NCBI GenBank assembly: GCA_947172415.1
Contig: OX359191.1
Span: 7,549,130-7,613,129, forward strand
Length of the DNA stretch: 64,000 nt
Origin: Chondrosia reniformis
Lineage: Eukaryota; Porifera; Demospongiae; Chondrillida; Chondrillidae
Direction: 5' to 3'
Shown here: one piece after another, positions 119-3,100 of the stretch
How the letters are laid out: each line of letters opens with the position of its first letter
How positions within the stretch are numbered: the first letter of the stretch is position 1
Position numbers and translations under genes: made by a program
The notes under the pieces: generated by a model
What the model was told of the DNA's origin: nothing
Databases searched by the model: none
The model's input: only the letters and a program-made list of their open reading frames with translations

Positions 119-3100
119 ACGTGAATCACGATTTTACCTTGATCCCCGTACTCCCCTGGAAGAAGCTCGTAAGGAACTTCGCTCACAGTGTACCCTCAAA
201 TCAGAGACCCCTTTCAACCTCAAGTGGCTGGATGTGGAGGGAGACCCCATCAGCGTAGACACACCTCGAGATTGGGATGAAGCCATCCGACTGTACATGT
301 ACAACCAAGAGACTGAACTAATTCTGCATGGTCAGTTGAAGGGGAGGCTTTTAAGGACTGTCTTTAGTATAGAAATGGTAGTTCTTCCTGCATTTAGATT
401 ATCTAAAGCCAAAAGATGCCCATAGTTACATTTAATGTTGATATTCAAACCTTTAATACTGGTTGAAAGATGAGCCACCCCAAAAACTAGGTATTGTTTA
501 CAGTAAACAACAATAAACTTGTATCAATTTTTTCTGTAGTATTTGAAGGTGATCCGCCAGTTCCTGGCCAACTGTGTGAAGGAGAAGATCGTAAGTGAAT
601 AGACAAAGCTCTGATGGGAGAGCAGTTAATGTACTGTTCTTCCTGTATCTCAACAGGAAGTATTTACCAAAGAAGAGGAGCAAAGAGATGGAAGAAAATC
701 AAGAGGATTAATGGTCATGCGTTTGTGCCCAAGAGATTTGCTAATGCCTACTGTGCCATCTGTGATGACAAGATTTGGGGACTTGGCAGACAGGTAACGG
801 AGAGAGAGAGAGGACATTTTAGCATTGTGCAACATCTTATCTTGCTTTAATCTGTTGCCAGGGTTACAAGTGTCAAGCTTGCAAGATGACTATTCACAGG
901 AAGTGCGTCTACTACCTCCGTCAAATCTGTGAAGGCCATCCCGTTAGAACTGGTTTTCTGTCTAGTTTGTGTGTGTGATTATATGATTCTGCTCCTCATT
1001 TAGCCTGTTGTGTCCGCCGCTTCTCGACACACCCATGAAGGACCAGAGGTTGTTAGCAATAACCAAGTTACCAAGAGCAACCACCACAAAGGAACTGATG
1101 AGTACAGCGGACACCTGCCTGACAACTCTGATGTGATTGGGGAATCTCAAATCACATTGGATCATTTCAATGTTTTGAAAGTCATTGGGAGAGGAAGCTA
1201 CGCCAAAGTGTTGATGGTATGACAGATGTGTCTGTCCACAATGTAGAACATCTTTTATGGCTAAAAACTCTAGTTGGGTCTAACTGTCCCCAATTTGTCT
1301 TCCATAGGTCCAACTGTCCCCAATTTATCTTCCATAGGTCCAACTGTCCCCAATTTATCTTCCATAGGTCCAACTGTCCCCAATTTATCTTCCATAGGTC
1401 CAACTGTCCCCAATTTGTCTTCCATAGGTCCAACTGTCCCCAATTTGTCTTCCATAGGTCCAACTGTCCCCAATTTGTCTTCCATAGGTCCAACTGTCCC
1501 CAATTTGTCTTCCATAGGTCCAACTGTCCCCAATTTGTCTTCCATAGGTCCAACTGTCCCCAATTTGTCTTCCATAGGTCCAACTGTCCCCAATTTGTCT
1601 TCCATAGGTCCAACTGTCCCCAATTTGTCTTCCATAGGTCCAACTGTCCCCAATTTGTCTTCCATAGGTCCAACTGTCCCCAATTTGTCTTCCATAGGTC
1701 CAACTGTCCCCAATTTGTCTTCCATAGGTCCAACTGTCCCCAATTTGTCTTCCATAGGTCCAACTGTCCCCAATTTGTCTTCCATAGGTCCAACTGTCCC
1801 CAATTTGTCTTCCATAGGTCCAACTGTCCCCAATTTGTCTTCCATAGGTCCAACTGTCCCCAATTTGTCTTCCATAGGTCCAACTGTCCCCAATTTGTCT
1901 TCCATAGGTCCAACTGTCCCCAATTTGTCTTCCATAGGTCCAACTGTCCCCAATTTGTCTTCCATAGGTCCAACTGTCCCCAATTTGTCTTCCATAGGTC
2001 CAACTGTCCCCAATTTGTCTTCCATAGGTCCAACTGTCCCCAATTTATCTTCCATAGGTCCAACTGTCCCCAATTTGTCTTCCATAGGTCCAGCAGTCCC
2101 CAATTTGTCTTCCATAGGTCCAACTGTCCCCAATTTGTCTTCCATAGGTCCAACTGTCCCCAATTTATCTTCCATAGGTCCAACTGTCCCCAATTTGTCT
2201 TCCATAGGTCCAACTGAAGAAGACTGACCAGATCTATGCAATGAAGGTGATCAAGAAGGAGCTGGTGATGGATGAGGAGGACATAGATTGGGTGCAGACT
2301 GAGAAGCATGTGTTTGAGCAAGCTTCTAACCATCCCTTCCTTGTTGGTCTCCACTCTTGTTTCCAAACTGATAGCAGGTACGTGAGTGTATCAACATAAA
2401 ATAGCAATGTGATAAAATAGCAATGTGTAGGTGGGCATTAGATGGGTCATCTTTCAGTATGACTTTAAGGGTCAAAGTTTAAAAGATTCATGTTTTCAAA
2501 TGTAAAATAGGTTTTCATTAATATTGTATCAGGTTTCATAGCATTCTTTCATCTCGGCTCATGTTCATCTCCCGTGCAGGCTCTTCTTTGTCATTGAGTG
2601 TGTGAACGGAGGAGACTTGATGTACCACATGCAGCGACACAGGAGGCTCCCGGAGGAACATGCTCGCTTCTACTCGGCTGAGATATGTCTTGCTCTCAAC
2701 TTTCTACATGAAAGAGGTACGTACTAACTTCTCAAGCTGACATGTTAGAGGTAGAGATCATGTACGTATCGTCTTATTTTAGGCATCATTTACAGAGATT
2801 TGAAGTTGGACAATGTCTTGCTGGATGCAGATGGACACATTAAGCTAACTGACTATGGAATGTGCAAGGTAGGGTCACACTTGTATAATCCATTGGTCTC
2901 CCTTTGAATCATTACATTTGCTGGTTCTTGTGTCTCTCTTAACAGGAGGGAATGCGACCTGGGGACACCACAAGCACGTTCTGTGGCACTCCCAACTATA
3001 TTGCTCCAGAGATCCTCCGTGGTCATGATTATGGTAAACAGACTCACTCCCGTCATTTTTCAATTTAGTTGACTGTTTTTCTCCCATGGAAGGTTTCTCT

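Follow-up and report, generated by a model that had tools for sequence, protein, structure and literature searches.

The intron at positions 1217-2207 (+ strand) of an aPKC gene in the sponge Chondrosia reniformis is made up largely of 31 tandem 30-bp units, each of which repeats the 3′ splice site of the following exon together with the first nine bases of that exon. We consider it probable that the array is a junction-spanning minisatellite, which would have arisen in a short intron through duplication at microhomology and been tolerated since the copy adjacent to the exon is the one chosen. The DNA examined, referred to as the window, was a 64,000-nucleotide stretch (C3:7549130-7613129) of a genome of 117,379,552 bases in 15 contigs. 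An initial annotation of the window had assigned the gene to aPKC, and this identification held: PB1, C1, kinase, and PKC C-terminal domains were recognized with Pfam, and PKC iota is the closest solved relative. The PKC iota alignment crosses the 1216/2208 junction with no gap (KVLL/VRLKKTDRIYAMKV; here and below, a slash within a motif marks the junction); the exon therefore starts at 2208, in phase 0, as had also been proposed. The coding frame is intact across all exons read, and eight of the 12 modeled introns measure 59 to 77 nt. Among the 150 of 292 candidates scored across the genome, no second copy of aPKC was seen; the best match elsewhere was 50% identical over 149 residues, and shorter partial matches reached 75% over 24, as is typical of other kinases. 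Features of the intron and of arrays at other loci are listed in Table 1.

Table 1. Features of the aPKC array intron (window coordinates) and repeat arrays in other genes of the same genome
Feature	Position or locus	Strand	Repeat and junction	Basis
aPKC exon before the array intron, ending ...AAAGTGTTGATG	1004..1216	+		Reading-frame gene model, PKC iota alignment
Non-repeated 5′ part of the intron, donor GTATGA at 1217	1217..1277	+		Sequence, gene model
GGTCTAACTG, putative upstream arm of the founding duplication; holds CTAAC	1277..1286	+		Sequence
Tandem array	1278..2207	+	31 units of 30 bp; AGs ending at 1307+30n, all decoys except the last	TRF, unit reading
Authentic acceptor AG	2206..2207	+		Gene model, PKC iota homology
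First nine exon bases, GTCCAACTG	2208..2216	+	Common to the unit start	Unit reading
GAAGAAGAC, purine-rich enhancer-like run	2216..2224	+	Adjoins the authentic site only	Sequence
aPKC exon after the array	2208..2377	+		Gene model, PKC iota alignment
Y-box (cold-shock domain) gene intron	42152..42531	+	Nearly filled by array	
AAK1-like kinase	L039		Acceptor side; 26/26 decoys with AG, all TAG; authentic CAG	PDB search homology
Protoporphyrinogen oxidase (PPOX)	L038		Acceptor side; 19-bp units, AG at 11/12 upstream positions	Homology
POLG-like	L016		Acceptor side	Homology
CPSF_A region, DDB1-like by reading	L044		Acceptor region; ~2.4 copies of 40 bp; exon-derived patch, not the first exon bases	Pfam
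ABAT	L036		Own donor; nine downstream copies	Homology
Snf7/CHMP2-like	L041		Own donor, possibly GC; 17 copies of AGGCAAGTCC	Pfam
APH domain	L043		Own donor; 3 copies	Just below the Pfam cutoff
Donor-side array	L020		Donor side	Reading frame only
Donor-side array	L022 2921		Donor side	Reading frame only

TRF reported 31.3 copies of a 30-bp unit at 1277-2216, with 98% matches and no indels, and self-identity at a lag of 30 was 0.988, compared with at most 0.315 in 200 shuffles. The repeat begins 61 nt into the intron. Read as units, the array agrees with its first description: 31 full copies, whose start matches the first nine bases of the next exon and which all end in CCATAG, are followed by the exon's own bases as a partial 32nd copy. 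Head-to-tail units of this size fall within the usual definition of a minisatellite (~10 to 100 bp). Twenty-four of the 31 units are identical and five differ at column 20 alone (A for G); unit 1 carries GTCTAACTG, and unit 28 carries GTCCAGCAG. The variant units are 1-4, 26, 28, and 30. Four columns vary in all, three of them in the part derived from the exon, which is what variants descended from the founding arms would give. The AG is invariant, but with variation limited to four columns, we do not claim constraint on the decoys. The unit pattern was found at 29 places genome-wide, every one inside the aPKC array. Four frames of the array are open, two on each strand; of the three forward frames, only that of aPKC is closed. 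Hidden coding was considered and rejected, as open frames are an ordinary outcome of a short unit divisible by three.

An AG is present in all 30 decoys, and splicing to any of them would place an in-frame stop after nine codons (30/30), ahead of the lysine of IYAMK, presumably the ATP-binding residue. The initial annotation had given the decoy reading as VQLSPICLP followed by a TAG stop. The stop stands for every decoy, while the exact peptide is limited to 24 of them, five others reading VQLSPIYLP and one VQQSPICLP. Because all 30 decoys stop after nine codons, its further claim that a functional kinase requires the very last acceptor is upheld. As sequence potential, the premature stop that defines unproductive splicing and NMD is found in 30 of 30 decoys. 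Since the genome encodes a UPF1-type domain, NMD of decoy mRNA in the sponge appears plausible. The TAG of the acceptor itself falls in frame in aPKC, in the AAK1-like array (25/26 decoys), and in the Y-box unit; in the POLG-like array, it does not do so immediately. Because chance gives one in three for each array, the in-frame TAG is not significant and was rejected as a signal.

The 31 acceptors had been called equivalent. Under a position-weight matrix built on the remaining 11 introns of the aPKC gene model, all 31 have the same value, 2.0; those 11 introns, each left out in turn, range from 0.1 to 9.7. Of 211 other AGs in the gene body, 17% equal or exceed the array acceptors in score. 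By this small 11-site matrix, the array acceptors are equal and rather weak. The equivalence does not extend to their surroundings, however, as the contexts are alike up to +9 only and each end of the array has an element of its own. At the upstream end, CTAAC (1280-1284, unit 1) is the sole CTRAY in the intron, later units reading CCAAC; its A precedes the AG of the first decoy by 24 nt and that of the authentic site by 924 nt. Splicing to the first decoy would give a 91-nt intron. Given the unit 1 CTRAY and the short-intron habit of the gene, scanning and intron definition would therefore both favor the first decoy. At the downstream end stands GAAGAAGAC, which we take to be enhancer-like. 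Among 12 exons, only the one at 2208 has GAAGAA within its first 30 nt; the motif was not seen where the AAK1-like, PPOX, and POLG-like exons begin. The sequence of GAAGAAGAC is partly set by a conserved LKKT, and its presence next to the authentic site may be luck; no paper turned up in a literature search that paired it with fibronectin. Three pieces of the intron folded no better than shuffled sequences (z scores of 1.78, 0.36, and -0.10). At 2195-2224, GUCUUC of the last unit could pair with exonic GAAGAC in a hairpin not found in the decoys. This hairpin, which would enclose the authentic AG alone, was rejected, the z score of its piece (0.36) being not significant.

Similar arrays were found in other genes of this genome. 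Two pattern searches required three AGGT sites in a row, with matches listed from C1 to C4, and 15 loci were chosen from them; with AGGT as a condition of selection, these loci carry no information on frequency. The CAGGT form gave 714+318 matches versus 171+185 for the backward-read pattern and the TAGGT form 292+247 versus 196+119, which are counts of overlapping matches with satellites included rather than of arrays and served to find examples only. Of these loci, three with the gene's own acceptor region (L038, L039, and L044) and three with its own donor (L036, L041, and L043) are given in Table 1; a Pfam search of the AAK1-like locus gave no match. A further locus (L037) holds a candidate array without homology support, the array at L034 looks coding, and at 7 of the 15 loci (L033, L035, L040, L042, L045, L046, and L047), the array could not be placed on a junction. 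In the printed frames of the donor-side arrays, stops lie past the first donor in the frame of the exon at L020, L036, and L043. The donor looks like GC (AG/GCAAGT) in two donor-side arrays (L020 7100-7290 and L041). Across the four acceptor arrays (aPKC, AAK1-like, PPOX, and POLG-like), a stop is reached from 73/73 upstream positions, and AG is present at 72/73. The exon-adjacent copy is therefore needed in at least part of the transcripts of these genes. As judged from sequence, such a requirement for the copy closest to the exon would fit exon definition and not simple first-AG scanning.

A less biased sample consisted of 19 10-kb stretches (L010-L028), several of which, near 4 Mb, are satellite. 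Arrays were accepted at a period of 15 to 80, a copy number of 3 or more, and matches of 85% or higher, and one (L017 7641) was dropped as lying inside a 13-bp satellite. Twelve arrays passed, and 3 of the 12 span a junction, namely, those at L016, L020, and L022 2921 (context was viewed for nine, that is, for all except L012 501, L013 8896, and L027 4759). The same thresholds gave four arrays in the window (at 1277, 5826, 18956, and 42186), of which the aPKC array spans a junction. By geometry alone, 37% of 30-bp segments touching introns would span a junction at the intron lengths of aPKC. Special targeting of splice sites is thus unnecessary, since chance geometry gives a similar share. The Y-box array (42186-42519; 11 copies of 30 bp, each with CTCCAATAG) repeats an acceptor but ends before the authentic one. 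Its unit is also in phase 0, and AATAG gives an in-frame TAG after nine codons (ALSTPHGLQ, then stop).

Several other repeats were observed along the way. The 29-bp array at 18956-19696 of the window has units with an inverted repeat (CCCCTCTCTCTAAAGGGG) and an inverted copy at its end. A satellite of ~169 bp fills 58921-63996 of the window, occurs also in L010, L014, and L024, and is dispersed over several contigs. A diverged 13-bp satellite (TGTACTAGTTGTA), perhaps centromeric, fills much of L011, L015, L017, L021, and L023 (~4 Mb; C1, C3, C4, C6, and C7). A similar 48-bp repeat (GGTACCACTGCCGAAGCTGGCTATGATGTA...) was seen at C2:3153896, C2:3904242, C2:4131411, and L027 4759; it looks like a dispersed repeat and is perhaps coding.

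To explain the aPKC array, we infer a founding tandem duplication between GGTCTAACTG in the intron, probably the old branch-point region, and the near-identical GGTCCAACTG across the exon start. Of their 10 bases, 9 agree, and in an ancestral intron of 91 nt they would have been spaced 30 bp apart. The 30-bp block copied would have comprised the polypyrimidine tract, the AG, and nine exon bases, turning an intron of ~91 nt into a growing array in which each unit, in RNA, would form a near-complete 3′ splice site. The units of the AAK1-like array likewise vary between two forms of the arm, GGTATCTTTG, which stands on its upstream edge, and GGTGGCTTTG, which stands at the exon. Exon definition would pick the copy adjacent to the exon, aided by the downstream donor and the nearby GAAGAAGAC. 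Use of a decoy, if any, would add nine codons and end translation before the ATP-binding lysine, yielding waste mRNA that NMD would probably remove. The array would then be mostly tolerated and not built for regulation. Against this explanation stand the low scores of the array acceptors and the preference that first-AG scanning and short introns would give to the first decoy, just past the sole CTRAY.

Other readings of the array were weighed against the same evidence. Tandem arrays are prone to mis-sizing, but an assembly artifact is hardly credible here, since the available part of the report on odChoReni1.1 gives about 70x HiFi coverage (10.31 Gb in 0.80 million reads of ~13 kb each) and QV 69.8 (PMC12181767), the array is 0.93 kb long, and variant units occur within it. 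The initial annotation had suggested that copy number tunes aPKC output: some transcripts would be spliced to decoys and destroyed by NMD, in a share set by the number of units. The stop in every decoy, the closure of the aPKC frame alone among the forward frames, and the UPF1-type domain all agree with such tuning, as does the lower expression that accompanies greater VNTR length in ABCA7 in the portion of PMC5954066 available. The same portion, however, describes one-unit retention in ABCA7 as constant across lengths, and unrelated genes of the sponge have similar arrays with units of 19, 31, and 32 bp, which are not multiples of three and make the arrays look like a by-product of short introns. 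The architecture recurs in other genes, on both the acceptor and the donor sides, so a dosage device peculiar to aPKC is not the simplest reading, and we regard it as unlikely. It is also unlikely that this haplotype is a damaged allele, in which the first decoy would be the main acceptor and little aPKC would be made, the other haplotype being functional. The sole CTRAY and the 91-nt intron that it would yield, resembling the other short introns of the gene, are what a damaged allele predicts, but the frame is intact in all exons read, and several other genes with similar arrays would all need to be damaged.

Each unit contains AGGT (CATAG/GTCC), and a published model, in the part of PMC4974935 available, derives introns from tandem duplication of an AGGT segment. 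That the aPKC array created its intron in this way is nevertheless highly improbable: the donor at 1217 sits 61 nt outside the array and not in a unit, and the unit is mainly intron sequence plus nine exon bases. Ratchet re-splicing, in which a decoy junction would regenerate ATG/GTCCAA and its GT would be spliced onward to the last acceptor, draws on AG/GT at all aPKC and AAK1-like decoys and most PPOX ones. AGGT was required, however, in the search by which the AAK1-like and PPOX arrays were picked up, the POLG-like array has AG/AA, and GTCCAA is far from the donor consensus; we consider re-splicing very unlikely. There is, finally, a small chance of a copy-number attenuator shared by the other array genes of the sponge. 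The acceptor run, led by the branch point in unit 1, would give mostly stop-bearing mRNAs, and kinase would be made only via the exon-adjacent copy, reached directly or by re-splicing at AG/GT. If this were true, sponge genes with splice-site arrays would share a fast-evolving control of output written in repeat number.

The rules of 3′ splice-site choice are usually probed with few competing sites at once. One genome here offers runs of 31 (aPKC), 27 (AAK1-like), and 12 (PPOX) near-identical acceptors, the authentic site included, along with donor-side mirror cases, in genes of basic function. These are natural tests of splice-site choice, in which each wrong acceptor would leave its own junction: first-AG scanning or intron definition predicts the first decoy, and exon definition or enhancers predict the last copy. 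The findings suggest that minisatellites take up splice sites readily where the introns of a genome are short. Like the ABCA7 VNTR, splice sites captured in this way would contribute heritable variation in the quality of mRNA.

Among known arrangements, NAGNAG acceptors are three bases apart, a spacing that differs from the 30 bases of the aPKC array. A recursive (ratchet) splice site consists of an AG followed by a consensus donor, GTRAGT; the aPKC units read AG/GTCCAA instead. Our literature search, of partial coverage and so weak evidence of absence, found no account of tandem acceptor arrays in a sponge. The closest parallel is the VNTR in intron 18 of ABCA7, for which the available text of PMC5954066 describes 25-bp units including the donor of exon 18, with 23.7 copies in the reference. 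When the next copy is used, one unit stays in the mRNA and a premature stop follows; this retention amounts to ~2%, and longer VNTRs go with increased skipping of exon 19. In both cases, a minisatellite adjoins an exon and its unit holds the splice site of that exon. The ABCA7 repeat is on the donor side, whereas that of aPKC is on the acceptor side, with nine exon bases in the unit and 31 copies; polymorphism and RNA effects were demonstrated for ABCA7 in the text available. By that analogy, a long array may put the next exon at risk of skipping as much as it risks decoy use.

In human segmental duplications, minisatellites (mean 30-bp units, 4 copies) cross exon-intron boundaries and alter splicing, with 27 intron modifications in the accessible part of PMC2812944. 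Those cases concern duplicated primate genes, few copies, and novel introns within exons, in contrast to an aPKC intron that already existed and has an acceptor in every unit. Intron gain by AGGT duplication, for which the available section of PMC4974935 mentions a multicopy 24-bp case in fission yeast, shares AGGT with the aPKC unit but has the donor in the repeat, whereas the aPKC array starts at 1278, downstream of its donor. Exons with distant branch points, as described in the part of PMC1431707 available, resemble aPKC in the distance between the best branch-point match and the authentic AG; they have an AG exclusion zone, whereas in aPKC, the stretch from CTAAC to the authentic AG contains 30 other AGs, all in the same context. 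In Caenorhabditis elegans, an intronic minisatellite has been tied to splicing decisions in a source seen in part. What is new in the sponge array is its place on the acceptor side, the exon bases within the unit, the 31 copies, and the recurrence of the arrangement in the same genome.
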